Origin: Pilatotrama ljubarskyi
Taxonomy: Eukaryota > Basidiomycota > Agaricomycetes > Polyporales > Polyporaceae
Direction of reading: 5' to 3'
DNA length: 64,000 bases
Assembly: GCA_022385805.1 (NCBI GenBank)
Contig: MU277680.1
Span: 8,693 to 72,692, forward strand
Within the stretch, counting starts at the first letter, position 1. Each line of letters begins with the position of its first letter. The notes under the pieces were generated by a model. It was not told the DNA's origin and made no database searches. It worked only from the letters and a program-made list of their open reading frames with translations. A program made the position numbers and the translations under genes. This document shows positions 20,698 to 56,950 of the stretch, piece by piece.

Positions 20698-23600
20698 TCG
20701 CCCTTTATCCCGGGGGAGTCCACCATTTCCGGGCAAGGCATGGACCCTGGACGAAGGCCCACCACGGGCATGACGAGCGCGAAAATGCGGAATTTCCGGG
20801 CCAAGCGCCCCCCTTGTGGAAGGTGGCGAGCTCCAGCACACAGCATTGCACTGATCTCCCCGTGGCCACCTGGCTCATGTTCGCCGGGAGACCGTTTCAG
20901 AGCCGCGAAGCTGTTGAAACAATTGGTCCCGCCCAACCATGCTGCGCAAAAGTCGGGAATTTGCGCGCCGCCCATCATCTTCTTATTGCTCGGAAAATAA
21001 TGGTGATGAAATGGCAAAGATCTGAAAAGAATAGCGACCGTGGAAATCTTGTGCAGGGTCGCGAGGGTGTGAGAGTGTTCAGCGCTCTCGTCCGCCCGCC
21101 TGTCCGTACTCCGCGATGCCCCCCGGCCACGAGTTGCTTATCGTCACTGCGCTCTTGGCTGCAACCTTGTTCTGAGTCTTCTGCACGGCTGCGAAGACAA
21201 AACCTTCAATGCTCGTCTTGCCTAGCCGTTTTCTTCGAACTTGCGAGATGCGGTGGGCTATTGGCTGTGGTGGAGCGGTAACTCTGCAAACATGGCAGGT
21301 GCGAACCACAGACCCTGTCCGGATCGCAACGTGCCTGAACGCGGAGTTTGCCGAGCGCCCACCGCTGCGTCGTCTCCATGTCCACAAATCCACGGGGAAA
21401 CCTTTGCCTGCCCCATTCGAGCACAGCGCCCTCAATGCCCCGTAATTGTACACGTTGCACGCCTGCAGCTGAAGAGCAGCTGCTTTGTCTGGACGGTTCG
21501 CTCAAAGTGCGGCTTTCGCTAGGCGACACCGGGGTCCAACAATATCGTGCTGGACTTCTTTGTTATCACCTAGCTCTGATACCCTGCGAGACTTTGGGTA
21601 AACTCACGCAGGGTCGTCTAGGGCATCATGTGAGTCGCTCCTTTCTTTGGGTCCTTGCATTCTCGATAAGTCATAGAGAGGGTGTCATCGAGGACGGGGC
21701 TCCCAACCGTGGCGCGCGTCTTCATGGTCGTCTTTCAGACACTCTCAATGTCCGTACGTGATGTTGCACCCCCGAATCATGATCCAACCGTTCTCTTTGA
21801 GATACGCTGATAGCGAGATCCAGGCTTGTTCAGCAACCACCGCCGGAGCTCGAGACCTCCGCTATTTGTTCCACAACAATGCAGGACGGGTTTCTCCAGG
21901 GCCCGGTGAGAGACAAGTCTAGCATGAGCCAGACTCGCAAGTTCCCGATGCAGTGGCGGACGGGACTGCGGCACGCACACAGCTTGCGGCCCGTGCCTAC
22001 ACGATCCACGATGCTCGTCGAGTTCAAACGCAACACTGTGAAGCTGTTCGGCATTCGTGGACGTCGTGAAGCGTCGACTCGCGACGAATCCCACGATGTA
22101 GGGAACAGGAGTACTCGGAGCCTTGTCAGCCCTATGCGCGTGCTAAGAAGTGCCCGCGCTTCTCGCGCGGGATGGGTGATTCGCGTCCGGGACATCTCAA
22201 CGTGAGTGGTTGCGATCGCGCGAGGACGATCATGATGATGGGTCATGAGCGGGGACCGCCATCGTTTGGGCATTCCGTTGATGGGCGTCGAGCCGTTGTG
22301 CACGCAGGACCTTCGGATGCCGGGACGAGAGGAAAGGCTTTGCTGCCGAGTTCGCCGTCACCCATGGAGTGGCTTCCGCGAGAACCGGTCCTGCTGTGCC
22401 TGCTCTTAACTTGTGCGGAGGTGCGTCATCGCCAATCCTTCGAGCCTTCGACAATGCAGCGCCAGCCAGCTTCCTTGGTTCGTGGGGAACGGGCGCCATC
22501 GCCGTATTCCCCCGCGCGGGCAGCGTTTCGCAGGCTAGGCGGATAGTGTTCTTCGCCGACGACACCGCTTGGTCATCTTTCTTCCCTTCCTCTTGACCGC
22601 CGACATCGCCACTTCTTGGTAGGCCTCGTAGAAGGAAGAGGCGTCGCGAAGAATGCACGAGCGATTTTAATGACTAACTAATTTGCGTTGTTCAGTGCAC
22701 ACGGGCAGGGGAAGAGGACTGAGGGCAACCTAGCACCATTCAGTACTCAGCGGCCTACAACTCACGCCCCAGATCCTCTCGCTACGAACCCCTCGACAAG
22801 GATGCGCGTCGCGCCTTGTACGTCTTTCCTCGCGTGGTAGAGTCGAGCCCCGTGCCGCGCACGCGTGACCGCAAGCGGTTTCGCCGTAGGCAAAGCCACG
22901 CGTTGTTACGTACGCCACGCACACTGCTGCAGCCCCGCGAGCTAGAGTCCAGATCGAGGAGCGCGAACCCAAAGTGATAGCATAGCACTAATAAGTAGTG
23001 CAGGCCGCATCGACATCGGCGATCGACCATCTGGCGGGGTGCATCTGGTGTCGCCGCCGATTGGCACCCGCATGCCGTACACCCTTACGTGCGCGCGTTC
23101 GGTATGGAAGCCCATACAAGCTCACACACTGCACCGCTCATTGGTGGCCGGTAACATGCCATGCCGAGAGTAAGTAGCCGTCGGGAATCGTGCGGAGGAA
23201 GTTTGGAAGGCCGCGAGGAGACGAGTCTCCAGTTTCTGGGTGATTACACCTCGAGGGCGTCGCCTTCGCTGCTGATGATTGATCTAGTCGAGTCTTCTGT
23301 GCGGAATCTCTATGAAGTGCGCATGGCTGCTTACATTGTATATAAGACATGACTATAGGCAGAAAGCGATATGCGAGCAGGACTGCTTGGAGTGCAGCGC
23401 GAAGCCTCATATGTAATATGTTATGATCCAGCAGCGATCCACCTCATCTCGGCCACTCGGCATCCTGGAAGAGACCTGGCGGATCGTCATCGCCTGGTAC
23501 AGCGGCGTTGGGAGTGGCTGGATGCAACGTCTATCAATACACACGCTTGATGTCCTCAGGAGGCGCAAGGGCGACTATTCAGGCATCGGAGGAAGCCCAT

Positions 23601-24884: not shown

Positions 24885-26507
24885 GCTGCTGTATCCGACG
24901 GACGGTGAACCAGGTGCTCACCCGCAGCGCGCGGAGGAGAGCAGCAGTACTTATACCGCCGCGAGAAAGGCTGCAGCATGTCCGAGTCCGGCTCTGGCAC
25001 CCCGATGGTCGAACCGCGGACCCCGAGGATCACCGTCCGCATCGATACCGTGCGCCCCTGTGCGCACCCTCGCGGCCTGCAAAAAGGCAGGCGGTCGAAG
25101 CACACGCGCCACGCAGCCGCGACGTCCACCCCGCCCGCACTACGTCGGTAGAATGCTCCCCAGACTGGGCCGCTTGCTCTTACGGAAATGATCGCGTTCT
25201 TCGGGCTCGAGCGGGGCCCCTCTTGACATTTGCGTCTGTTCTATCGCCGCGCGGCGACTCGGGTACGTAGTAGTTCAGTAAGCAAGGTGGAGGAGAGGTC
25301 GGAACGGGCGAGCGAAACCGAGCCTCATGACCCTCGTGCAGCATGTTAGGGCTTGCAGGATGCTCTGCGCACGACTGAACTGTAAGAGCTCGGTCAGCGA
25401 TTGAACGGACGCCTTGTAATATCGATAGCACATACCGGGGCCGCCAATCTCTCGGCGGGTCGCCAGGTGTGGAGTGCATTAAACCATGTTCGCGAGTCCG
25501 CGCGCAGACAAGGTTCATGGCAGCCCGCGCCGAGCTGCGCGCAGTGCAACCGGCGGGCAGCATTATCCCACCGCGAGCCTCGCCTTGTGCAGCTGGTCAC
25601 GCCGGGCGCACAGAGAATAGCACGCTACCATTGCAGCAGCCGGACAGAGCATCAGGCCGGGACGGAAGGGAAGGTGGAAGCCACCCGGAGATGGACTCGG
25701 AAGCAGCGCAATGCATTGGCACGACAGACACACCTCCGGCCCCAACACTCTTCACCAGGCCCGGGTGTACTTCATACAACTAGGCTCTAGCATCTGAGCT
25801 AGCGTCACGGAACGTACGTTCTTCGCGTCAATCCCCTCTCAACGCTTCATTTTGGCGTCCAGGGCGCTCCGAGACGCAGCGTGGCGCGAGCAATCCGTCT
25901 GGAGGTTCCAAGACGATGCAGGGCTGCCACGTCCGAGTCTCGCGCAGAGATAGTAGTAGTGCACCGATTGGGCCGTCTACACGGCGTAATGGCAACCCAA
26001 TCCGAGGCATTGGCCAGCCTCGGTGTGAGAACACCCTCGCACGCTGCTCTCGGATGCTGACCCGGCTCTTGAACCGTCCATCGTCAAGAATATTTGCCGG
26101 CGCGCAAGAATAAACGCGTGGGTCATACGCACGTCGGACCATGTCCTGGTCTTGATCACCTGCTACCGCACCAGACGAGCACGGAGTTAACACCATGACG
26201 TATCCGTCATCGCAGTACGTACCGCGTCTCGCCTAGAAGACATTTCGAACGAGTGGACGTCCCCGCGGACGGCTTTGACACTGGCAGTCAGTGGTCGTAA
26301 GCATCCGACGTACTACACCGCTCCGTTCGGCGTAGTATCTGAGTGCACATGGAAAAGGTCAGGGTCTGAAGAACGCGACCGGTACTCGAGCCGTCCAGAA
26401 CTAACTCACTTTCCATCTCGGACTCCGAGGCGGCGAGTATCGGTGCGCCACAATCGTCCTAACTCGTCCAGGTTCAGTCTTGGCGCCTCCGCCCTTTCAA
26501 TTACCGC
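24885..26507. other. Gene-poor region left of the transposon
   Basis: About 1.6 kb up to the target-site duplication of the CACTA element. Short frames occur (for example 25828-26196 minus) but I could not build a gene. Nothing is supported. Confidence 0.35.
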
Positions 26508-26510
26508 AAT
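26508..26510. repeat. Left 3-bp target-site duplication AAT
   Basis: AAT immediately precedes the CACTG terminus and is matched by AAT at 38952-38954 directly after the opposite terminus. A 3-bp duplication is what CACTA (En/Spm) elements make. Confidence 0.8.
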
Positions 26511-26534
26511 CACTGCAAAACCGCCAAAATATCC
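26511..26534 (+). repeat. Left terminal inverted repeat of CACTA element
   Basis: Starts CACTGCAAAACCGCCAAAAT, then ATCC; the right end reads the same for 20 bases, then GTCC. One mismatch in 24. Confidence 0.9.
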
Positions 26535-26996
26535 CGGGCGAGATATGGGGCGGAAACACTCCCTTTCTAGAGTATCTCCGGCGATCGAATATGTAGACGA
26601 TTTTATCGATCCAAGATTCTAGTTCACACCCGAACTTTTGGCTTCGGAGCCGGATGTGCTGTCTATCCGGGCGGCTGGATACATTGGAACACGTGTATAT
26701 CCGCCGCCGGAACTGCTGTGATAGTCTAAGTTCCGTACTTTGACTTTATTGACTGTCTAATCCATCCTGTCCGGATATAATGCCTGCCCGCCCCAAATAT
26801 GTACAGGTATCACTTCCGATATGGTCTGTCTTCGTCGAATATTCGCTCATTATAATCGGAGTATGGTCAAAGTATATTGCTCGAAGCGACCTATCCGCTA
26901 CCCGTGGCAGGCACCTAGTACCTCGCCCAGGGTGCGCAAATTTCCCTTCGCTCCCTTCATATTTCCTCGCCTCTGCTACGCTAGAGCACGTCCCCG
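26535..26996. repeat. Left subterminal region with short repeated motifs
   Basis: Contains repeated CCGG-centred motifs: TATCTCCGGCG at 26573, TTCGGAGCCGG near 26643, TATCCGGGCGG at 26664, ATATCCGCCGCCGG near 26697 and TCCGGATATA near 26770. Related copies lie at the right end. In CACTA elements such subterminal motifs are bound by the element's own DNA-binding protein. The promoter of the first gene must also lie here. Confidence 0.6.
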
Positions 26997-29290
26997 ATGG
27001 AAGGAAGGCCGCAGGAGGGACCCCCAGCCCTACCGGGGCAGCAAGCATCGCCGCTTGCCCCAGGGATGGGTGAGCTACATGCTGGGTTTCATGGTGAGGA
27101 CGGTCGCAGTGTCGCGCAGAGAGGAGTACTCACGGAGACCCCTATTAGGCGGTGCAACCTTCGCACAGCACGACACTGTGCACTATGCAAGTACTCCAGC
27201 AGCTATTCCACAAGTCAATAGCACCGCACCACAGGTTTCGCCGGCAACACCTCAATGCGTCGATCCCTCGCTCTCGTCAACCTCTACAGCATCGTTTCAG
27301 CCACACACGTCGAGCGGAACAACTGGGTCAGCTCACCTATCGTACCTTCCACCCCACCCGCCCAACGGGAGCATGTACAGCGGCCCTCCTCTCCACGAAA
27401 ATCCCAGGGGCTTCGCCTCGCTGCCTGCCTCCCCATCACCTCATCCGCATGCTCACAGCACCATGGGCTCGTACGGTACTCCGGCTATGCGTCCACCAGA
27501 TAACTACCGGAGCCATGGTGCGTCTCCCTCTGTCCATGGCAATGGTCAGTGTACGACTGGCAGCGTGCCGTCGCCGACGCCTCAGCCCCGCATGGATGCC
27601 AGTCCGTACAGCCTTGCGCCGGGCCCGCAGGTTCCACGAACGCCATCACAACAAGCTGCTCTCTTCGACGCTCCGAATGACTCCTGGACGGCTACGGTGC
27701 GCTTCCTCGGTCAGCAATCTTCCAACCTCCTGGTGCGGCTCGAGAAGGTCGAAGCGAAGGAAGCCGAAATGGTCGTCAGCCTCAAATACCTGCAACAACA
27801 AAACCAAGACCTTACCGCTCGTCTTCTGGCACTTGAGGCTCTCCAGCCGTCGAAGACCCGGGAGGAGGGCTGGACGACGTTGAGAGTCAAAGCGAAGGAG
27901 CATGGAGTGCTGAAGGCGAGCATGAACGATCTCTTTACGCTGACAGCACTGACCTTGTACGTACAGAACAAGATCCACCAAATGGCTTGGTCCATGATGG
28001 GCTTGAAGGATAAGCGCGGCACGACGGAAAGGAGCGCGGAGATTATCGCCCAGCATCATCCGCTTGTGGACGGCCAAGCCTTCGTCACGCTTGAGGATGG
28101 CACCCGCGAATGGCATCCGGCTTGGACTGAGCCTATGAACAGCCCTCTGAACAAGAAGTTCATCGTCGCCATTGCCGAGCAGGTGTATAATAATGAAAAG
28201 GTGAGCCTTTTCCACCGCTAGTATGCAATGCATGTGAATGTCACTGACCTCCCGTGGCAGGCTCATCGCGAACAGGCCAATGCCAATGCTCCCCCTGGCA
28301 TCCCAGATGGGTCTTTTAGCCTGGATATTGCCAAGGCCCTCGCGCAGCAGTACATCGCCGACCTGGCCGTACAGTATAAGGAACAACAGACAGCAACAGG
28401 GCGTGAGAAGGCTTCGCTCAAGAGGAAGAGGGGCAAGGAAAGGAGCGTACGTGGAACTGTGCGTTACTCCTCCTGATATTACCCACCTGTCTGCGTGCTA
28501 AATCATGTGGAGGTCATCAGAAAGCTCTCAATCGTCGCCGTATGGCTACGCTCACCGAGGACATGCACGGGTGGGAGGGTGCAGTAGGTATGGTGGGCAC
28601 TGATTTCTGTTCCTCGGAACATACGTTCGACGAGGAGAACGCGAGCGATGACAGCAAGCAACGGCGCATCAAGCAAGGATGTGGGGTCGGGGGCCGAGTG
28701 GTGAACGCACGTACATGGCGCAGGAAGGCAGTGAGTTAGCTTGGTAATCATCTTATCATGTTGCAGGAACTCACCATTCAAAGTACGTGCGGTTTCTGCG
28801 GTACCTCGACCACTTGCTTGACCTGGAAGCGCGTGGTCGTCTGACGTCACTGCCTGCCTTCGTGCAGCTCAAGAGCGCTATCACACAGTCGAACCTGGCT
28901 CTGCAGCAGGGTGTCGAAGGCCAGCCACCTGCAAAGAAGGTTAAGCTTGACGACGACACCCTCAAGGACCTCATTCGACAGGGTAAGGGCGGGGGAAAGC
29001 GGCCGAAGGGCGCTTTCCATGCAGCATACACGAAAGGTAACCCTCGTGCGCCCGTCAGCAAGCTCCTGCCCACGGAAGGCATGGTGAGGAAGAGTTGGAT
29101 AGAAGAGCGTCGCGTGAAGGGGGAATCAGAAATCGCCATGAGGAAGGACCCTGATTTCTGGCGTACCTGCAAAATCACCGATGACATGCTTCAGCCTCAC
29201 GATGTCGCACTGCTTGCAGAGGTACCGGATGATAGTGAAGAGGAGTGCAATGATGGGCAGACAAACGATGGGCAGGAACAAGAGGAGTAG
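26997..29290 (+). CDS. Transposon-encoded coiled-coil protein of unknown function, 686 aa
   Basis: Five exons: 26997-27125, 27169-28200, 28261-28446, 28521-28710, 28767-29290; the 43-nt first intron and all phases close. I do not recognise the family. Residues 1-220 are Pro/Ser/His-rich and probably disordered. A coiled coil lies at about 228-268 (LVRLEKVEAKEAEMV, LQQQNQDLTARLLALEAL). Next is a well-ordered block, about 298-387 (TLYVQNKIHQMAWSMMGLKD; GTREWHPAWTEPMNSPLNK). A basic stretch SLKRKRGKERS (about 440) looks like a nuclear signal. The last exon has HHSKYVRFLRYLDHLLDLEA, a basic/Gly patch GKGGGKRPKGAFHAAYTKGN, RKSWIEERRVKGES and an acidic tail DDSEEECNDG. By position inside a CACTA element it could play the part of TnpA, the helper that binds subterminal repeats; this is inference only. 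Confidence 0.82.
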
Positions 29291-29410
29291 TTATCAGCGA
29301 TGTAGCAAAAGTACAGTCCTAGACTCGAGTACAGTGTGAGCATGCGTAGCTACCGATGTCAAAGACGATGCATTCACACGCACCTGCAATCTCTTCGCCT
29401 TCAGTCTCTG

Positions 29411-32400
29411 CTATCCAAGGTGTCGCGTCGACTGAAGCAGGCGACCCAGTCGTGTTGGCCCGACGGTTAGGATCGGGCCTCCCAGCAGTGGAACAGACGT
29501 ACATGGTCAAGTGGGATGGTGGCCCAAACCTTACTGCCGTCGCTCCCTGGACGTGATTGCACGGTCACAGACTTGCGCCCAAGATATCCCTTGATGGTTG
29601 GCAGCGGGATTACCGTATCACGGAGATTTTCGGCTAGGTACTCTTCCAAATACCAGAGACGAACGTCTAAAGCGGCGCTGTATTGGACAGTTATCACCCA
29701 GCGACGTACACAGGGTGTGCGTCAGACACTCACAAGTCTGTCCATATGTGGTCCTGCCCTTGATCCCATGGCTTCAGCCATCGAACACGCGCGAGCCACA
29801 ACGGAGGGTACCGATCATCTTGCTGGAATTGAAAGATCTCTATCAGTTCTCCGCATTCCACCGTAGTTACCGACCCTGTAGTGACGAAGACCTCGATGAG
29901 GGACGAGTGCTTGGTGTTCGATTCTGCTGAAGCGTAGTACTTCCGGCCCTCAATTACGACATGTTCGAAAAATGTAGCTGTATCAGCCATGGGCACACTA
30001 TGAAGCGGCGGCGCATGGTTGAGCATGGAATGTAAACCCCATGAGGGGTACTGGAGGTTGAGATGTCGAAGAGTGGCGCGGTATGTATCTGAACCCATGC
30101 GACGTATCTGCGAACGAGCACCCATAGTATAGGTTGCGGCATGAGACCAGTGCCATGGGTGAGCTAGCCGTCCACGCTCTTCGGTCAGTGCTCAGACGAT
30201 CATCCCAACGATCGGACTCACCATTTACAAGGTCGCTGTCAGTGCTCTCTGCCCAGGATGCTAGTCCGGCAACAGTACCTCGACCGTCTTGTGTTGCTTT
30301 GAGAAGAGCGCTCCCTAAACGTTGCACTATGGGAACATCTGACATGTTATGTGCAGCAAATGCGACCTGTATGGAGGCAAGTCAGAAAGGGGCCCAGAGA
30401 CGACCGGCAGGGCTCTGGATACTATACCATGCGGGAGGACATCGTTGTCCTGTGGAATTCAGCAAAAAAGGTCGACTCCAACTCGCCATCCCCACGGTTG
30501 TTCGTGTTGTACGACTTGAGGACCTTGTTCAGTCTCTCGAAAAGAAAGCTCCAGAAATCGTGCAGTGGACCGAACTTGAGAGCAGTGTCTGGGACGTGCG
30601 TTGCATAGTGGTGGTTCGGGCGGATGGCAGACGGACCATAGAGCTCACAGAACTATGAGCATCATGATGCATGGATGAACGACTTGACCCAGCTTACCCG
30701 GATGAGCTCGCGTCCATACTCACGAAGAAGTACATCAGCGCGCGCTATGTCGCCCACCGTGATGTAGTCATTGGTGAGTAAACGCAGGGCCTCCGAAAGC
30801 TTGAGGAAATTCTTGGGATCATCAGGATGCAATGTGTATAGCTGCTCGCCTCGCTGGACGTCAGGGAGAGTCGAGGAAGATGCTGGTGCCGGCAGATTCG
30901 TGTCCATCGCAGGCTGGGAGAGATCTTGTGCCGAGGCGGGTCCTGCAGGGGTGAGTGCAGATGCACTGCTGCCAGGACTCGCCGGGTCTACAAGTCTCAT
31001 ATCTATACAAAACAATCCTTAGTAAGTACTTACGGCCCAACGCTGACCGGAAACGGAAGCAAACCGTCTGGTTTCTCTGCTGCTGGCCGCTTGCGTTTGC
31101 GGGTTGATGCTGGGTTCGCAGCGGAGCTGGCTGCTTTGGCAGCCGCTTGTTCAGCCTTCTTACGTGCTCGTTCCTTGGCTGCCTCGCGGCGCTGACATGC
31201 CTTACGTGCTTCCTCCTGCGCTATGCGAGTTATGCGATCATTCAGCAGCTTGCTTGGGTCAGGCGGAAGGCAAGTGCGCCACAGCTCAGGAATCTATGAA
31301 GAGTATCAAGAACGTCCACATCCCGTTGCCAATGTAATGGTGCATATGCATGCTCACGAGGATGGGTCCTTGAGTGATGGCTAGCAAGCGCCACTGATCT
31401 GCAGTCAACGACCCACCCGCAGGAGTTCCAATATCTTTAGGCAGTCGTCCTGCAGACATCGGTAGAACAAACTGTCAAAAGAATATGATGATTAGCATTC
31501 AATTCACATATAGCAGGCGGGTAGTCGGAAGGCAGAACAAACGTCTTGCAGCATCTCATGTAACTTGCGAAGCTCATGGTTCTCCCGGAGTATCCCCATC
31601 TGCACCCATATGTGATAGAAGTGCGTCTTCACGAGGCCTAGAAGTTCGTGTTCAGTGACGAATGCAAGTCATGATGGAAGCGGACAAGATCGACTTGCGA
31701 GCACAGGAGTCACTCCTCGGCATGTGAGCTCACTCACCAAGAAATAGGTTGTGCATTGGGTCAATGACAATTTGTTCCACGATGTTGAAGTATGGGAGAC
31801 GGGAGAGCTCAGTATACCTTGTCGCATGCTCCTTCACGAAGCGATCCTTCTTTGCCTGAGTGTCGAGGCGCGCATACCTTGCACCTAAGGCACGGTGCTC
31901 TTCATCAGTACGTTCCGCGAAAGCTGGGCGTACAGAACAACTCAGTACCAAGTTGAATACCAGCAATACAGATGAGAGTACGTACCGCCCCGAATGAAAG
32001 CCTCGGGAGTCGCTTTATCCTCCTGCTTGATGCGATCCTGAGTGCAGAAAAACGTGTGGCTGTGCGAACCAAAGCCCCCAATCTTGTGTGCCGCAGGCTT
32101 ATCACACACTACAGCCATCAGGATCACACGGACAAGACGTCCTGGATATAATCAGTCGAAGGATGTGTTCAGTACCGACACAGTCATCATGCATGTAGCA
32201 AGATGATTACTTACCTTCTGGACAGGATGGTGTCCGGACTACGATTCCATCACGCCACAATCGCAAGAGATCGCTCACAATAGGATGTATGAAGCGTTGG
32301 AGTTCATCTCCGCTTTGTTCTTTTGGCCCGGGTAAGATGCTGGTGAGCAGCAAATTGGCGGTTCGGTAGCGGAAGGCCGGTGGCAAGTTCGCGATTGCAA

Positions 32401-34115
32401 AGGAGGTTGGACATGACGAGTGAGAGGGCGCGATGTTAGACACGAGGTATGAGAACCTGGAGGGTTAACAATGAGCTCCAGGGACAGTGGTTGTGTGTCA
32501 ACGTACTCACCAGTCAGCTGCCCATTGCAGACCGATGCGCAACTCGCCGCGCGGACCGTGAGCATGCTGAGGTCCATCATTTTCGAAGAATCGACGTCCA
32601 TCAGGAGCCAGCAAGGTGCGCACCACAGATCCGTCAAAGATGTCGCGCAACACCCCATCCTGGCGTTTGCGTGTGCGCCATTCATCCAGGAGTGATTCCA
32701 TGCCTTCGATTTGAAGGAGCCGCTCGATCTGCTCCGAGAGTGACAAGTACGGGTATCTGATTACAGGGACCCGAGTGCCGTCGCTACGAGGTTTGGTCCC
32801 TTTGAATAGGGGATGTTGGCAGAGGATGCAGAGCGGTGGGGTCTCACGGTGATTGGGGTATACTTCTTTGCAACCGCCGCAAACAGCGAGGGATTGGTAA
32901 GGTACATCGAGACCCATGAGGGTGTTCACCTTCTTGAGAGTCAGGAATGGTGCGGGAGATCCTGGACAAACCAGCGCGAGGACGACAGAGAAGGCGAGTA
33001 GGAGAACGTTTGCGGCAGCAACAGGGAGTGCAAACTGTAAATGGAGCCAAGGAACGATGGTGTAGATGCAGAGGAGATGGAGAGGCACTTCATGAAGGTT
33101 TGGAAACGCCACGTCGCGTGCAGACTGGACTGCGATGAAGGCATCTGGCTGCGTGTTGTGCCATGGTTGATTGCGCATGAGCGCATCCCACCGGTCCGCG
33201 ATCATGTTCTCAAGACCTGTATGCGTAGCTCGTGTCATTTACGACTCTAGAGGGATACTAATCAGGGAACATACCAGGTGCAGCACCTGCAAGACCAGGG
33301 CAGACTTCCGCCTGGCTCAGAGGCGTCCCGCTGATAGCTTGGACTTGTTCAACACCGGCCTGGGAGTTGACGGGCTGGGAATCCACCAATCCCTCGCCAA
33401 TCTCTGCAGACTCATCCTCCATTGGATCGCCATCGATCTCTGGTACTTCGCAACGCAGATCTGCAGCTCCAGAAATGGGTCCCAGCCTGGTGAACTCGAT
33501 TACTTCCTCGTCGTCAACGAGCTCTGGCATGCCATCATACTGCATATCCTGTAGCTGTCACATTAATAGGACCGGAGGAAAGAGCACAAAGACACTGACA
33601 TTCAGGTCGATCTCTTCAGCCAGTCCATGCCCCACCCGACCAGAATTGCTGAAACCAGGGAGGCTCGTATGCGCACGGTAGGATGTCAACGGAGTTGCTG
33701 CCCGGGCCATGGTCGCGTTGAGTCGCTCATGATGATCCACATATGCCAAAAGAACCTGCGGATTCTCAATGCCTTGCCCAAAGGTGGGAGCTTCGAGCTG
33801 CACATCGGAGGGAGACATAGTGCCGTGGTCGAGCATCTCCTGCTCAAGCGGGGTTGGCTGTAACCATGGTGTGCAGTCAACCTCAGACAGATCAGGAGCA
33901 AGAGGGATGTTGTCTGAATCCCTAGAGACATTCAAGAGCTTGCCTGTAGAGCTGATGGGCCTGAGATTGGACGGAGCACTAGATATGCCAGTCGATGTTA
34001 CGGAAGCAGATGAAGAGCGAATCATTGCGCTGATATGCAGGCGCCGTTTGTAAGGCAAGATTTCTAGGCCCTTGCAGGCTGGACAGGGACAGGAAACCAG
34101 ATTTTTCGCAGGCAT
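29411..34115 (-). CDS. CACTA/Plavaka-like transposase, about 1,271 aa
   Basis: Fifteen exons: 34115-33600, 33554-33275, 33216-32511, 32456-32215, 32141-31986, 31923-31738, 31637-31543, 31471-31358, 31293-31065, 31002-30698, 30643-30428, 30366-30222, 30163-29734, 29677-29503, 29431-29411; every phase closes without a stop. N-terminal Cys cluster CPCPACKG (C9, C11, C14) with later His resembles a zinc finger. RWDALMRNQPWHN follows, then a zinc-ribbon-like VCGGCKEVYPNH...CILCQHP. The catalytic-core region has HKIGGFGSHSHTFFCT, LPYFNIVEQIVIDPMHNLFLG (conserved Asp about 688, the D-x-x-H of Tnp2 proteins), and RPNHHYATHVPD with FLFERLNKVLKSYNTNN (about 953-1000). A basic helix RKKAEQAAAKAAKAASAA lies between. 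The C-terminal VVIEGRKYYASAESNTKHSS is a further conserved block of these proteins. It should cut the CACTG ends. The last exon is the least certain. Confidence 0.85.
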
Positions 34116-34853
34116 GACAGCATATAGGATGGCAGAAGACTCGAGGGCAAGGCGCAGCGAGGTACTTCATCGATCGTAGAGCGCGTTTGAACACGTGATC
34201 GCGATGGAGGCAGGGATCGAGCGCTTGCCTGTTTGGCCCACCTTCCGGGCTTGCGTCTGGCATAACTTTTGAGGCATAAGTTCCTAAGGTCTAGCAAACA
34301 GCATACGTACTCTTGTACAAGCACATAGTATATTAAAGCTGCTTTACCGATGTACAGGCTAAAGCCGAGGAATACAGAGCAGATTTTTTTCCGCAGGGGA
34401 GTGGCACAGAGTAGACGCCCGCGGACTTAGCACCGGGGTGAGCCTGCCATTTGCCGGAGAACCAGATTACCGCTGAGGCATAAGTTCCTAAGCTCCCATA
34501 TTTCGCATGAACGTAACCATAGATGTTTGTAATCCATAAAAGCAAAAATTCCGATGTACACGCGCTGATGAGTCGCTGCAGAGCAGCTCAAAGGTGTGAA
34601 CCCTACCGCCAGCTGAGTTAGGCGCCCAATAACCACGCGTGGTGCATGACGCGCCTAAGACGCGACCTGTCACGGTCGACGCGTCCGGCCGACGCGTCCC
34701 TCCAACGCGTTGCGCGATGCGTATCAGGGCATCACATGTGCGCGTTCTGTTTACACGATAGACTGGGCGCATGAATTCACACGCACTTCGTGTCTGACGC
34801 CTACCTCTCTGCAACACGAGACGTCTACCTCAGACTCGGGACCATCTACGAGG
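34116..34853. promoter_or_regulatory. Bidirectional promoter region inside the transposon
   Basis: 738 bp between the transposase start (minus, 34115) and the 714-aa gene start (plus, 34854). It contains the two-copy 204-bp repeat described separately, then a stretch with repeated ACGCGTC/GACGCGT words (about 34650-34715: GACGCGCC, AAGACGCGAC, GACGCGTCC, GACGCGTCCC, AACGCGTTGCGCG). These resemble binding-site clusters. Confidence 0.5.
34271..34678. repeat. Diverged 204-bp two-copy tandem repeat
   Basis: GAGGCATAAGTTCCTAAG occurs at 34271 and 34475. Downstream, CCGATGTACA sits at offset 76 in both copies (34347 and 34551) and CAGAGCAG at offset 104 in both (34375 and 34579). The spacing is preserved exactly while the sequence between has drifted, so the conserved words may be protein-binding sites. 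Confidence 0.8.
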
Positions 34854-37502
34854 ATGCCGGAGTATAGCGAGGTCCTCGCAAGTGTCCTCACCGTTCTGCG
34901 CTGGCTCCAGGCTATCCGCACAGCTCATTCCGATGCTGATCTTCCCATTCTATACCTCTGGACTGACGCTACGAAGAAGGAGAGTGACAAGGCCAAGCCT
35001 CGAACCTCGCGTGCCGCCCAGGGGCTGGTCTACCGCATGGATTCGTCGGCGTGCAGCAAGTTAATGCGTGGCTCCTCTGGTTCTCAACAGTACCTATGGC
35101 CCCGAGTGGACGGAGTCCCTCTCGACTCCATAGAGGGATTCACATTCAAGGGCATCGAAGCAACACCGCGTACCATTGTGCTCGACCTGGGGGTCATTTA
35201 CCTGCAGGTGGGTTTCCACCGAGGCTACATGCAATACGTCTGGCTTGCTCATGCACCCTGGGTAGTTGCGGCTCCACATTCACATGGTCAGTCAGGTCTA
35301 CACAAAGGCACAGTGGCACGACGAGATCGCGATGGTTGATGTGGATGTAAGTCACAACTTCTGGCCCTGTTGCAGTGTATACCGCCTGACATTCAGCCAC
35401 CTGGAGACCCGCAAATTCCGAGTTGGTCTCGGCCTCGAGATGGAAGAGTGGGTCATAGCATTCCTCACTGCTGACAACGTCTTCACAGTAAGCGATTGCC
35501 CTGCAATAACGTCGATCTATACTCTAATCCCTTGCCCCAGCCACACTGGGCACGCACCAAGGACGCATTGCCTGTCCACCATCCGGACGTGTACACGGAC
35601 TATTACCGCTTCCTCGAAGACGTGGCCGGACGTGTCCGGCAGCATCTACCTGAGCTTCGACCGACGGGACCCCCGTCTAGTGCGTCTGAGTCCGAGCCTG
35701 AGAAGAAGAAAAAGGAGAAGAAGAAGCCCAAGGTCGCGATGGAACATCTAGCCATTAATTGGGTACGCGACTCCGAGGGCATCGGAGGCGTAGGCGTGTA
35801 CATGAGCGAAGAAATCTTCTTCCTCGCAGGTGAGTGATGACTGCGCTTGAGTGTTGTTGCTAACGCTGACTTACAGTTTTCTTCAGGTCTCTCTGTCTTT
35901 CTGTCAGAAGAAGAGTTCTTCCGCTGCCCATCCCGTGTGGCCCGCTTCTGTGAAGCGTACTGGACGCTGGCAGAACGCGCTCACGCGGAGCTAAGGTGAG
36001 TGCTTCTCGTACAGTAGCCACCGTCTTCGAGGAATGTTGACGAGCGAGTGCTCAAACAGCACACTCTTGCAGCCTTGCTACGTGGGCTACGTCTTAGCTC
36101 CCACGAAGGAGCAGCGGTTGCGATACCGGGCATGGCTCAACGTACATGCCAAGATGCATGTTACCATGCCTGCCCGGATGAAGACGCTATGGGAGGACTA
36201 TTCTGTAAGCAACTCTGCTGGCTTGCTGTTAGTAGAGATCCCTTGAACTTACAAACACGTAGAACATCATAGCGCAGGCGTACGAGGACGGTAGCAGTGT
36301 TCGCCGCCTCCGAGATGCACGAAATATGTTGTATGACGTCTTCGAGCCTACCTATATCCGCTCTGCTCTAGAGAAACGTCTCAACCTGCGCCACCTGATT
36401 TTTGGTGAACCTCCACCCAACGGTCCCCTTGATCCGCTGACACAAGTGTATCAAGAAGCCGGTGAGTCCTCCGTGCTACAGCCCACCGACTGGCGTGACT
36501 CCACTGCAACCCAGGCAAATACGGTGCTGAAGCATGCCCAGGTCTCCTCCAGCGTCCTATGATGCCTACCAACCTGCGCCCTTCGTACTACGAACCAAAT
36601 CTCTTCCTCAACGCGGCCCAAATGCGCGATGTTCGACGCGTAAAGACAAATTTATTCCTATGCAGCGATGTCGTCTCCCAGAAGCCGCTCTGGACGATTC
36701 TCCCGCCATTCCCCGACCACTTTGTCTCCGATGACACGCAGTAATTCCTTGGTCTCCTTGCGTACCTTACACCAACAGCTGACGGTCCCTTACCTTTCGT
36801 AATCAGGCTGCTCCCGGAGGCGATCCATCCAGTGCGCCGTTACTTCTATGCAGCCTCTGAGAGTGAACGACGGACCGAAAGCTTCGAGTACATTGTCAAG
36901 CATACGAACAGTGTTGCCATTGGCCCCCTGGAGTACTGCGCCACCGGGCGGCGGCTGCACCGTGGAGGATGTGGCGCGCAGAACGTTATGTGAGTGCTTC
37001 CACTGGCGGCCGTCTCTGTAACCCATGTTCCGAGACGTTCATACTGTCCCGCAGTCTAGCGGTGTGCCGCGGGTCACCGATGATCCCAGAGTCCCTCTCC
37101 AACCGCTTGGAGGCTGGCATCCGACGGATCGCCGACGGTCGTCACAAGCCCGGGAAGCAAAAGAAAGCGCAGAACAAAGCGACCGGTCCAGGCGGTTGGG
37201 TATTGAAGGAAGGTCAACCGAAGCGTAAGCTAGCATGCTCGAAGAGGGAGCGCCGCTCGGAGACACCCACCGCAGACGTCGGCAGCCCTCTGCAAGACGT
37301 GTCATGCGAGACAAATGGGGATGTCCGCCCCAAGAAACGGAGACGTCGGGCTGATTTACAGGTCATCGAGGAGAGCCAGCAGATTCTAGTGCAAGACGTG
37401 TCATGCGAGACGAACGGGGATGTCCGCCCCAGGAAACGGAGACGTCGGGCTGGCTTACAGGTCATCGAGGACTCGGATAGCCAGCATATTCTGGTTATAT
37501 AG
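34854..37502 (+). CDS. Transposon-encoded protein of unknown function with duplicated basic tail, 714 aa
   Basis: Nine exons: 34854-35207, 35296-35487, 35541-35829, 35887-35995, 36060-36204, 36263-36461, 36515-36740, 36807-36989, 37055-37502; phases close. I do not recognise the family. No signal peptide or membrane helix. The N-terminal part (MPEYSEVLASVLTVLRWLQA; LYLWTDATKKESDK) looks globular, a Lys-rich linker (EPEKKKKEKKKPKV) lies near residue 220, and further blocks are FLSEEEFFRCPSRVARFCEA, PTYIRSALEKRLNLRHLIFG and NLFLNAAQMRDVRRVKTNLF. A Cys-containing segment (EYCATGRRLHRGGCGAQNV) near 565 could bind metal. The tail has two 33-residue copies of DVSCETNGDVRPKKRRRRA-LQVIE: basic nuclear-localisation clusters each followed by a short acidic-hydrophobic LQVIEE/LQVIED that resembles a SUMO-interacting motif (inference). 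An apparent 29-nt intron after 35346 was rejected because it breaks the frame. Confidence 0.82.
37293..37490 (+). repeat. In-frame 99-bp coding duplication
   Basis: CAAGACGTGTCATGCGAGAC starts at 37293 and again at 37392. The two 99-bp units differ at only a few bases and keep frame, giving two 33-residue protein repeats at the end of the 714-aa protein. Confidence 0.9.
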
Positions 37503-37536
37503 TGTTCTATGCTTATGTTCTATCGGCATACGTGTA

Positions 37537-38529
37537 TCATTCTGTGTATTTACGCTTCTCGGGAATCGACGGCCCATGTCGCACTCTCTTTGACCCATTA
37601 ATATCCCACGTCCCATTTTCCTCTTGGACAACCTTCAAGCGGTCAGGGCCACTGCGCTCATGTGTGCCTGCCTCAGGCTCCGACTGTTCGTCGTCTGCAT
37701 CAGAATCCAGGAAGCTGACAAGGTGACGAGCGGTGTCCTATGATAACGTCAGTATTAGTCCCGCAAGCATTCCATGTGCACACAATGATGCTTACATAGA
37801 AGTCCTGCGAGGAGAGATCCCGCAGCCGCTGTGAGTTGTTGGTTGCCGGTGTAGACTCCTTGATGGCGGGCACATCGACAGCTTGGACGGAGTGGGCCGA
37901 CGGCACTTGGGGGTGGCAGGATGAAGAGGGCGCGGCATGTGCGAGTCGGTTCTTGCGAGAGGGGCGCGCGCGACTTTCCGGGACGCTCGCACCTTCCCTC
38001 ACTACGCCAGTGCCTGAGCCTGCGAGACGGGAAAGTGATGTCGAGGACGGCCCGCCTTTTGGGTCGAGTGCTTGCCCCTTTGGCTGGGATGATGGCGGCG
38101 GTGGGGGGCGATTGAAAGACGAGCTCATGCTGACAGCAATGCCATGAATACGAGCACACGAGTCCAAAGAAAGACGTACAAAATAGCCTCGCGGTAGTGA
38201 GCCTTTTCCGTGAACAGTCTAGTAGTGGCAGTACACGGCGGTACTGGCGAGAAGTACTGTGGGGTACGTGACCCGGGCTCCGGCGTAAGTACCAACATCT
38301 GCAGAGATTTTCGGTGAGCCTCGTTCCACGTTTAACGTTCACAGTAGCGCCGAATGCTTACCAGCGACTTTCCCGGAGAGGGCAGCATGTCCGAATCCAA
38401 GAGGACACCCTGCGGGGAGCATCTCTGGGGATCGTAGGTTATGTTCACAACAGTGACATCGCCTGCAGAGACTTGTCGCTTGTTGAAGAATGGAGCTCCG
38501 TCGTAAAAGATGAACGAGTCTGGCGCCAT
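37537..38529 (-). CDS. Transposon-encoded protein of unknown function, 273 aa or longer
   Basis: Four exons: 38529-38362, 38298-38180, 38129-37796, 37737-37537; phases close. I do not recognise it. From the ATG at 38529 it reads MAPDSFIFYDGAPFFNKRQV, then VTVVNITYDPQRCSPQGVLL. The middle is Pro/Ser/Arg-rich and probably disordered (PPPPPSSQPKGQALDPKG). The C-terminal part has RHLVSFLDSDADDEQSEPEA and a basic end. A further upstream exon is possible, since the first exon's frame stays open upstream of the ATG and ATG codons occur near 38650. It converges with the 714-aa gene, whose stop is only 35 bp away, and is the last gene before the right terminus. Confidence 0.65.
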
Positions 38530-38927
38530 GATGATGTACGCGAGAGCGAGCAAGTGTGAAGAGGAAGTACTGCCTAAGCTTGGTGTTAACGTTAGCGTCG
38601 CTCAAGATCATCGACGTTTGCCGTAGCGCTTGGCCATGACTCTGCGTTGGCGAACATGAAAGATCCATTGTATGTTCCTGTCGCACTACAAGTGATTGGT
38701 ACAGGATCCAGCGTGTAGTCGCTATGCGGACATGTCAAGAATGCAGACTCGGGGCACGGAGGATGTGATGCAGATTCTCGCTGGGATCTGGAAAGGATAT
38801 ACTGCAGATCGTTATCATCTCCGGAGCCCAGGATCCGCGTGGAATCTGACCTGTCTCAACTCCGACGACTGCATCTCTCATCTCCGGATTCGCTGGAAGC
38901 ACGGTATCCCAGAGCATATCCGGCGCC
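38530..38927. repeat. Right subterminal region with short repeated motifs
   Basis: CCGG-centred motifs recur: ATCATCTCCGGAGC near 38815, CATCTCCGGATT at 38879 and TATCCGGCGCCGG at 38917. They match the motif class at the left end. Confidence 0.6.
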
Positions 38928-38951
38928 GGACATTTTGGCGGTTTTGCAGTG
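38928..38951 (-). repeat. Right terminal inverted repeat of CACTA element
   Basis: The minus strand reads CACTGCAAAACCGCCAAAAT then GTCC, identical to the left end over 20 bases. AAT follows at 38952-38954. Confidence 0.9.
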
Positions 38952-38954
38952 AAT
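38952..38954. repeat. Right 3-bp target-site duplication AAT
   Basis: Copy of the AAT at 26508-26510, directly outside the right terminal inverted repeat. Confidence 0.8.
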
Positions 38955-39444
38955 GCCGTAAGCCGCTACTCGACGCTTCCGAGACGCTACGGTCCTGACA
39001 CCACCACCACACCCCTGTCGCATGTCCGCGTCGCGCTCGCGGGGCCGAGGGCGGTCGGTCTTATGGACGATGGCAACATGATAGACAAGACGTGGGTGGG
39101 CATGATCTTATAAGTTTGATCGCACAAAGGCGCCTCCAGGACCGCCAGACAGCTCACTCCCAACTGCAAATCGGATTGCAGCAGCATACGGTAAACAATA
39201 AGTAATGGTACCGAATTCGAAAACGAAAGGACGCGTGCAAACGACTGGCGCAAGCTAACCGACTGACATGACGAAGGGGGAGGAGATTCGAGAGCGTGTT
39301 TGAGTCTTGCTGACTGCGCGCGCAGAAGAGCTTGTGCAGCGAGCGATGAGCAACGACGAATAGATCGTACAATCCAATAACAGCCTGATATGGTATCCGA
39401 TATCCACCACAAGCACCGTCCCCATTCCCGGCGGACGTGTGCGC
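38955..39444. other. Intergenic between transposon and noxA
   Basis: About 490 bp of 3' flank of noxA. No gene seen. Confidence 0.4.
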
Positions 39445-54993: not shown

Positions 54994-55418
54994 ACACATT
55001 CACTGGGTGTTGAGGTGGCCTTCCAGGGTTGGTCGTGCTGGTGGCTTGGCACCACGCCGCACGCGGATGTCTGCTGTAGTGGTCGTGGTCGAGAAGATGT
55101 TTTGAACCTTTGTAACAGTACCATAGCGCTTTGACTCGTGCATAGCTATCGCTTCAACCCTCACTTCCTGCTGCTGGTAAATCCGCCGGGAAAATGTGCG
55201 GACGCCGATGTACTTCAGCACGAAGCGCGGCCGACCTTGCGAACTTGACCCCTTCTCTCACCATGGACCGAGCGAACCACTGCATCTCATAACTCGACTC
55301 AGATAGTTCTTCGTACAGTGGATACCCGGACCCTCTTGTGTAGGCTTGATGCTGTACTAGGTGTGCCTTCGTCTTTGGGGGGGTGCAAAAACTGTATCTA
55401 GCTTACTTGGGATGAAGT
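54994..55418. other. Intergenic, no gene seen
   Basis: About 425 bp between CSN1 and tRNA-Ala. Nothing supported. Confidence 0.4.
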
Positions 55419-55489
55419 GGACATTCAGGGGATTGAACCCTGGACCTCACGCATGCGAAGCGTGCGCGCTACCACTGTGCCAAATGCCC
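55419..55489 (-). tRNA. tRNA-Ala (anticodon CGC), copy 1
   Basis: On the minus strand the 71-nt sequence folds with acceptor GGGCATT/AATGTCC (one G-U), D-arm GGCACAGTGGTAGCGC, anticodon stem CACGC/GCGTG around TTCGCAT (anticodon CGC, reads GCG), and T-arm CAGGG-TTCAATC-CCCTG. No intron. It differs from the copy at 56639 only at one acceptor-stem pair. Confidence 0.93.
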
Positions 55490-56505: not shown

Positions 56506-56638
56506 CGGAGTGCTGGCCAAGGTACTGGTCACTTTGCAAGTCAATTCCAGCTTCAAGTGCTTGCAAAGGGTAAGTCCCGTATTCTCATGTAAGTGCAGTG
56601 CATCGATGTGGTATTCTGCGTCTTGCCAGAAGAAGCAT

Positions 56639-56709
56639 GGGCAATTGGCACAGTGGTAGCGCGCACGCTTCGCATGCGTGAGGTCCAGGGTTCAATCCCC
56701 TGATTGTCC
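56639..56709 (+). tRNA. tRNA-Ala (anticodon CGC), copy 2
   Basis: Same 71-nt cloverleaf as the copy at 55419-55489 but on the plus strand: acceptor GGGCAAT/ATTGTCC, anticodon CGC in the loop TTCGCAT, T-arm CAGGG-TTCAATC-CCCTG. Compared with copy 1, position 6 is A instead of T and its partner is T instead of A, so the pair is kept. Confidence 0.93.
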
Positions 56710-56950
56710 AGTAGGTTGGAGGAGTCGCTATTTTTCCCTCCTCTTCTGGTGCCTCCTTGGCTACTGTCTCTTAAGTTACCAGCCAAGGCGAGCAGAAGAC
56801 TGTACAAGGCTCAATGACAGGTTCGGAATCATTGATCGAGGCCGATCTCTTTTTTGGGATGCTCCTCCGACTAATATACAATTCTTACTCTCTCATGACT
56901 GCTCGCAAACTTCTTCTCCTTGGCGGAAGCACACACCCGCACCCTAATCC

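Follow-up and report, generated by a model that had tools for sequence, protein, structure and literature searches.

The element and its boundaries

The DNA analysed here is a 64,000-nucleotide stretch of contig MU277680.1 of the polypore Pilatotrama ljubarskyi (the window; contig C11 in our numbering), and it holds a four-gene CACTA-type transposon of 12,441 bp at 26511–38951. The element is bordered by inverted terminal repeats at 26511–26534 (plus strand) and 38928–38951 (minus strand), which agree at 23 of 24 positions (CACTG…CAGTG), and likeness between the ends extends, imperfectly, to 37 bp at 86%. Directly outside them, AAT at 26508–26510 and again at 38952–38954 forms a target site duplication. 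Both features had been described in a first-pass annotation of this sequence, and our analysis confirms them. The only other inverted 24-mer pair with at most one mismatch in the window is made by two tRNA-Ala genes. In a scan of positions 22000–43000 for inverted ends plus a duplication around the genes, the element pair scored 33.5, and the top candidate other than its own shifted forms scored 18.5. The same annotation had pointed to subterminal CCGG-centred motifs. CCGG is indeed more frequent there than the 2.06 copies expected per outer 450 bp (6 on the left, 4 on the right), but the enrichment is weak and there is no convincing repeated unit, and we rejected an array of transposase-binding sites.

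Four genes lie between these termini in the order plus, minus, plus, minus, as had been stated, and chains free of internal stops exist for all of them, with support that differs by gene. Gene 1 (27079–29290, plus strand; 673 residues; exons 27079–28200, 28261–28446, 28521–28710 and 28767–29290) has two competing 3' ends, so that this end is uncertain, and no outside support. Gene 2 (29384–34115, minus strand) encodes a Tnp2-type transposase of ~1290 residues, with its start codon at 34115 and a provisional last exon and stop at about 29.3–29.4 kb. Gene 3 (34854–37502, plus strand; 706 residues in 10 exons) encodes a protein with a predicted Fpg/Nei-like fold, and gene 4 (37537–38529, minus strand) a protein of 273 residues (exons 38529–38362, 38298–38180, 38129–37796 and 37737–37537). 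Without a bonus for coding length, a simple gene finder recovered no more than the initial part of the transposase, and for genes 3 and 4 nothing but a short, false chain. Adding such a bonus and forcing the start gave the complete chains of the transposase and gene 3, which are backed by relatives; the gene 4 chain was spliced by hand against one alignment.

Genes 1 and 4 begin near opposite ends of the element and point inward. Gene 1 converges with the transposase and gene 3 with gene 4, and an intergenic centre of 738 bp (34116–34853) separates the divergent transposase and gene 3. Only these two genes diverge from it, and a shared central promoter could therefore serve just two of the four, so that the earlier view of a single module around one central promoter is not supported. 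The centre contains two direct-repeat pairs 204 bp apart; the repeat TGAGGCATAAGTTCCTAAG(G/C)TC, at 34270–34291 and 34474–34495 (spacing 204 bp), is a possible regulatory element.

The transposase and the genes at the two ends

Gene 2 matches PF02992 at 47.5 bits (cut-off 28.6), in support of the proposed CACTA-type element with a Tnp2-type transposase. Its relatives are two Trametes maxima proteins, 53% identical over 84% and 51% over 54% of its length. The protein contains an I-D-x-M-H-x3-L-G stretch as well as NHHYATH followed by FERL, which corresponds to the H(3-4)H stretch that precedes the last acidic, putatively catalytic residue. At the position of the C(2)C motif it reads FCTQD, and all four close paralogues in the genome (on contigs C140, C78, C32 and C86) read FCT[KR]D, that is, CxxD; among the three remoter Tnp2 paralogues shown, two have CxxC and one CTAG. 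The window transposase (at 31986–32141) and the loci L036, L037, L038 and L039 form a Tnp2 clade in which CxxD replaces C(2)C. A weak match to PF18759 (Plavaka; E 0.019, 14.6 bits, cut-off 26.3) was also seen, and membership in Plavaka or KDZ was rejected because the ends and the Pfam scores misfit.

No convincing inverted ends were found around the Tnp2 paralogues and gene 3 loci on C140, C78, C86, C54, C44, C57 and C40, the scan having left out C32 and C35. The two best candidates scored 21.0 (an 18-bp pair with 16 matching positions and a 2-bp repeat, around the Tnp2 gene of C140) and 18.5 (a 14-bp pair with CGC, around the genes of C40), and both are at the level of chance pairs in the window.

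The product of gene 1 has a proline/serine-rich start and a weak coiled-coil-type match, with no family above cut-off; no relatives of it were found in the genome, or in the protein database when residues 200–673 were scored against the 7994 candidates sharing most words. The product of gene 4 is similar to the N-terminal part of T. maxima P0001 (Smith-Waterman score 115, against a mean of 40 and a maximum of 72 in 500 shuffles; BLASTP E 2e-9), and the T. maxima relative of gene 4 therefore seems to have been annotated as one model with Tnp2. No gene-4-like N-terminus was seen in T. maxima P0002. The element thus carries two genes beyond the minimal pair within the same termini, as had been claimed.

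Gene 3 encodes a predicted Fpg/Nei-like protein

The identity of gene 3 had been missed in the first-pass annotation. Along nearly the whole chain its predicted fold is that of Fpg/Nei, with ~14% identity in structural alignments, and the model of P0004 aligns up to the end of the MutM chains. The 50 matches in the VIA listing are Fpg/Nei chains, a listing that carries no exclusion of other folds. An annotated P. ljubarskyi protein, P0003, is identical to the gene 3 product over residues 1–431 of its 452. The gene 3 protein begins MPEYSE, and MPExxE is present in 10 of 15 sequences (in one of them after MST), with MPG in one and other starts in four. A Met-Pro-Glu start has a catalytic role at the N-terminus of Fpg/Nei glycosylases. 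Furthermore, 12 of 13 sequences retain an H2TH-like stretch. The C-terminal tail is rich in lysine and arginine. An 82-bp direct repeat (94%; 37291–37372 and 37390–37471) in the last exon doubles part of this basic tail. When the gene 3 family was compared with the sequences of solved structures, the single match (E 6.8) was meaningless, and a Pfam scan of the members of our gene 3 alignment, A1, gave three families unrelated to glycosylases at E 0.12–0.18.

The genome contains two gene 3 paralogues, on C57 and C40. In the 10-kb stretches read around them, what follows each of them is a co-oriented integrase-core gene and not Tnp2, and neither stretch has a CACTG end. This neighbour is of the rva_4 type, as judged by PF24764 in P0008 and, at C40, by likeness to P0008. 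At both loci (L041 and L042) the Fpg/Nei-like gene adjoins the integrase-type gene, and at C57 the two are annotated as one fused protein, P0008. In T. maxima, a contig of 805,594 bases bears the gene 3 relative, and two others, of 2,177,008 and 811,930 bases, bear the Tnp2 relatives. The idea of a conserved four-gene cassette is weakened by this distribution, with gene 1 found nowhere else and gene 3 relatives occurring without Tnp2 at two genomic loci and on another contig in T. maxima. Gene 3 looks like a gene handed between mobile elements, by analogy with the TET/JBP genes that Kojima 2025 (PMC12730594) describes, in the available part of that report, as passed between such elements.

A family of copies with shared termini

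We searched the 33.1 Mb assembly (173 contigs) with the 20-bp terminus and found 15 sites at up to three mismatches, and none with a reversed control. These make up six two-ended copies, namely the window element (12,441 bp) and copies on C1 (4,211 bp, of which 3,283 are N), C33 (1,772 bp), C36 (1,337 bp), C42 (1,328 bp) and C68 (1,336 bp), and three single termini that run into N (C65), meet a contig end (C79) or belong to a diverged end (C24). The termini do not simply occur alone at unrelated spacing: 10 of the 13 outside the window element form pairs spaced 1.3, 1.8 or 4.2 kb apart, and every pair has a 3-bp duplication of its own. The duplication is perfect in all six two-ended copies (AAT in the window, ATT at C1, ACT at C33, AGT at C36, ACT at C42 and ATT at C68), that of C1 being valid if the end is placed after three extra bases at its right terminus. 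The single termini are bordered by AGT, ATT and AGT. All nine flanks therefore have the form ANT, which makes up 4.0% of the trinucleotides in the window. The target of the window copy (26501–26510 joined to 38952–38961) is nearly palindromic, TTACCGC AAT GCCGTAA; by eye, the targets of the other copies form no clear palindrome.

The three 1.3 kb copies are 95–100% alike over their aligned parts (99.7–100% for C36 and C68), suggesting that the family defined by these termini moved fairly recently. The short copies have in common with the window element only the left 144–145 bp or so (26511–26654, plus strand; 76–79%) and the right 69–70 bp (38883–38951, minus strand; 84–86%), and are therefore relatives of it and not its deletion products.

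We also joined the flanks of each two-ended copy, minus one duplication, and ran them against the genome. With the C42 flanks, 29 of the 41 matches listed were copies of a ~270-bp repeat that crosses the junction at 84–98% identity, a lower bound since 40 of 52 candidates were scored, and the remaining 12 were flanks of the six copies themselves. Four repeat loci inspected closely have a single ACT and are gapless at the C42 junction, and so represent an empty site of the family. This empty site shows that the CACTG termini delimit a mobile unit. Empty sites in related strains had been proposed earlier as a check; within this genome, the joined-flank search found one for the family and none for the window copy. 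The repeat targeted by the C42 copy is abundant (L053–L056 and more), 27 of the 29 copies listed being 95–98% identical and the other two 91% and 84%.

Proposed mechanism and its alternatives

The element represents a new fungal EnSpm/CACTA family. We put at roughly 0.78 the probability that it is a complete EnSpm/CACTA transposon of a polypore whose Tnp2 moves the element and the short copies, and whose Fpg/Nei-like gene 3 protein acts on element DNA. Family resemblance and the duplications give good support to a cut-and-paste model in which Tnp2 acts at ANT sites: the transposase would bind the CACTG termini and the adjoining region, excise the element and insert it at such sites with a 3-bp stagger, and would also mobilize the 1.3–1.8 kb copies. 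The gene 3 product may help the element move or escape silencing. Most probably it would act on the element's own DNA, stripping modified bases laid by host silencing, or alternatively might process DNA at excision or insertion sites. The host genome has matches to C5 DNA methylases on C10, C32 and C9. Gene 4 might be a fast-evolving partner of the transposase and gene 1, more weakly, a TnpA-like DNA-binding helper.

Several observations weigh against this reading. The mean predicted local distance difference test (pLDDT) scores of two gene 3 models are 65.7 and 63.8, four out of five runs of the second having stayed at 34–44, and profile comparison with hhalign gave a probability of only 12.7% and exceeded the best shuffle by 1.0. 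No Pfam/NCBIfam glycosylase match (PF01149/PF06831) was found in the window protein or in any of the 13 members of A1, and gene 3 is therefore called Fpg/Nei-like and not filed as a family member. The Asn of GxGN, invariant in five reference proteins, is Val in gene 3 (GVGVY); by eye, the strand lysine is replaced by Arg in the gene 3 family, and neither a CxxC…CxxC finger nor conserved cysteine pairs are seen in the alignment. Given these active-site changes, the activity of gene 3 may be altered or lost. CpG is only slightly depleted in the element (0.92, against 1.07 and 1.11 in the flanks), no sign of heavy methylation; with TpG/CpA at 1.18 against 1.09 and 1.08, the shift is weakly compatible with past methylation. 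The window copy may be recent and able to move by itself, as had been suggested, but no second four-gene copy was found in the genome, this is the sole coding copy found, and the search for its empty site gave none; the C1 interior (N) and the sequence past the C79 contig end are unreadable and may hide another. The roles given to genes 1 and 4 are guesses.

The replaced asparagine and lysine and the unconserved zinc-finger cysteines, together with the lysine/arginine-rich tail, would fit a non-catalytic helper in which the Fpg/Nei fold serves as a DNA-binding scaffold for bending DNA or for recognising ends or junctions in the course of transposition. We consider this unlikely, although it deserves real weight. 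The MPExxE start is retained by 10 of 15 sequences, including two that share only 29–31% identity with the window protein, which would be difficult to understand if the N-terminal residue had no use; the H2TH-like stretch is likewise retained. Gene 3 could also be a passive passenger, derived from another mobile element or from the host and without a role in the transposon, as might be expected from paralogues that adjoin an integrase-type gene instead of Tnp2 and from the separate contigs of the T. maxima relatives. However, the frame of gene 3 is open across 10 exons, the gene and the transposase diverge from a short upstream region that they share, and the two paralogues in the genome likewise stand beside a mobile-element-type gene, so that the association with mobility is repeated; we regard a passenger as no more probable than a scaffold.

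A further alternative, which we judge less probable than either of these, is that the element is non-autonomous and that another Tnp2 protein moves or moved both the short copies and the window copy. The short copies are not simple deletions of the window element, given the little terminal sequence they share with it, and the genome offers 29 exon-level matches to PF02992, of which 23 exceed the cut-off. In contrast, the contigs of the closest Tnp2 paralogues (C140, C78, C32 and C86) carry none of the 15 termini, and the window transposase frame is open.

We tentatively propose a wider hypothesis, itself somewhat doubtful: at least two kinds of Agaricomycete transposon, EnSpm and an integrase-type element, might carry and exchange an unrecognised divergent branch of Fpg/Nei glycosylases, used for base excision that undoes host DNA modification or for processing transposition DNA. 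Next to TET/JBP, these would form a second class of DNA-modification enzymes carried by transposons.

Other features of the window

The two tRNA-Ala(CGC) genes, at 55417–55489 (minus strand) and 56638–56711 (plus strand), are inverted and ~1.2 kb apart; the long inverted repeat that they form is no transposon. A domain scan of 10 long frames outside the element gave WW domain and coiled-coil matches and nothing else.

Comparison with known systems

According to the available part of DeMarco et al. 2006 (PMC1636069), CACTA/TRC elements of animals and fungi have the Transposase_21 domain, as does the window element, and one box is common to animal and fungal elements; the L/V/I-D-x-L/M-H-x3-L-G motif of the animal elements also occurs in the window transposase. 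In contrast, animal TRC ends start with CCC and have 2-bp duplications, whereas the window element has CACTG and 3 bp, and that part of the report mentions no glycosylase-like gene for TRC elements comparable to gene 3. Plavaka, a fungal EnSpm relative, has fungal hosts in common with the element, and its PF18759 family is weakly matched by the window transposase. Its ends are TGT..ACA or CATCA..TGATG with duplications of 2 or 3 bp in the accessible text of PMC12730594, unlike the CACTG of the window element.

Gene 3 resembles the Fpg/MutM/Nei/NEIL glycosylases in its predicted fold, MPExxE start and H2TH-like stretch. It differs in having no Pfam-level likeness to them, low structural-alignment identity, a replaced GxGN Asn, no conserved zinc cysteines to be seen and a long basic tail, and in lying inside a transposon. 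No report of a transposon-borne Fpg/Nei-like gene appeared in the titles and abstract openings of the literature searched, which excluded most subscription papers, and the DNA glycosylase passage in the available part of PMC12730594 concerns a host thymine DNA glycosylase. VANDAL transposons encode the anti-silencing protein VANC, which is sequence-specific and brings about loss of methylation in plants (Hosaka et al. 2017, PMC5735166, in the part available). The analogy with gene 3 is one of possible function only, the protein and the kind of element being different.

The closest comparison is with the fungal EnSpm elements of Kojima 2025 (PMC12730594), which in the accessible part of that report have CAC..GTG termini, a 3-bp duplication and a transposase class like those of the window element, and in some cases an accessory DNA-modifying gene. 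The C(2)C motif is reported there group-wide, whereas the window transposase has CxxD. We found no PF12851 match at E<=1 among the four element proteins, and no TET/JBP match in the host genome, a negative that carries no information because control genomes gave none either. Transposons with enzymes that act on modified DNA inform how mobile DNA evades silencing. The accessory gene of the elements described by Kojima is a TET/JBP dioxygenase and that of the window element is Fpg/Nei-like; if its product is a true glycosylase, it would represent a chemical route unlike that of the fungal TET/JBP genes.

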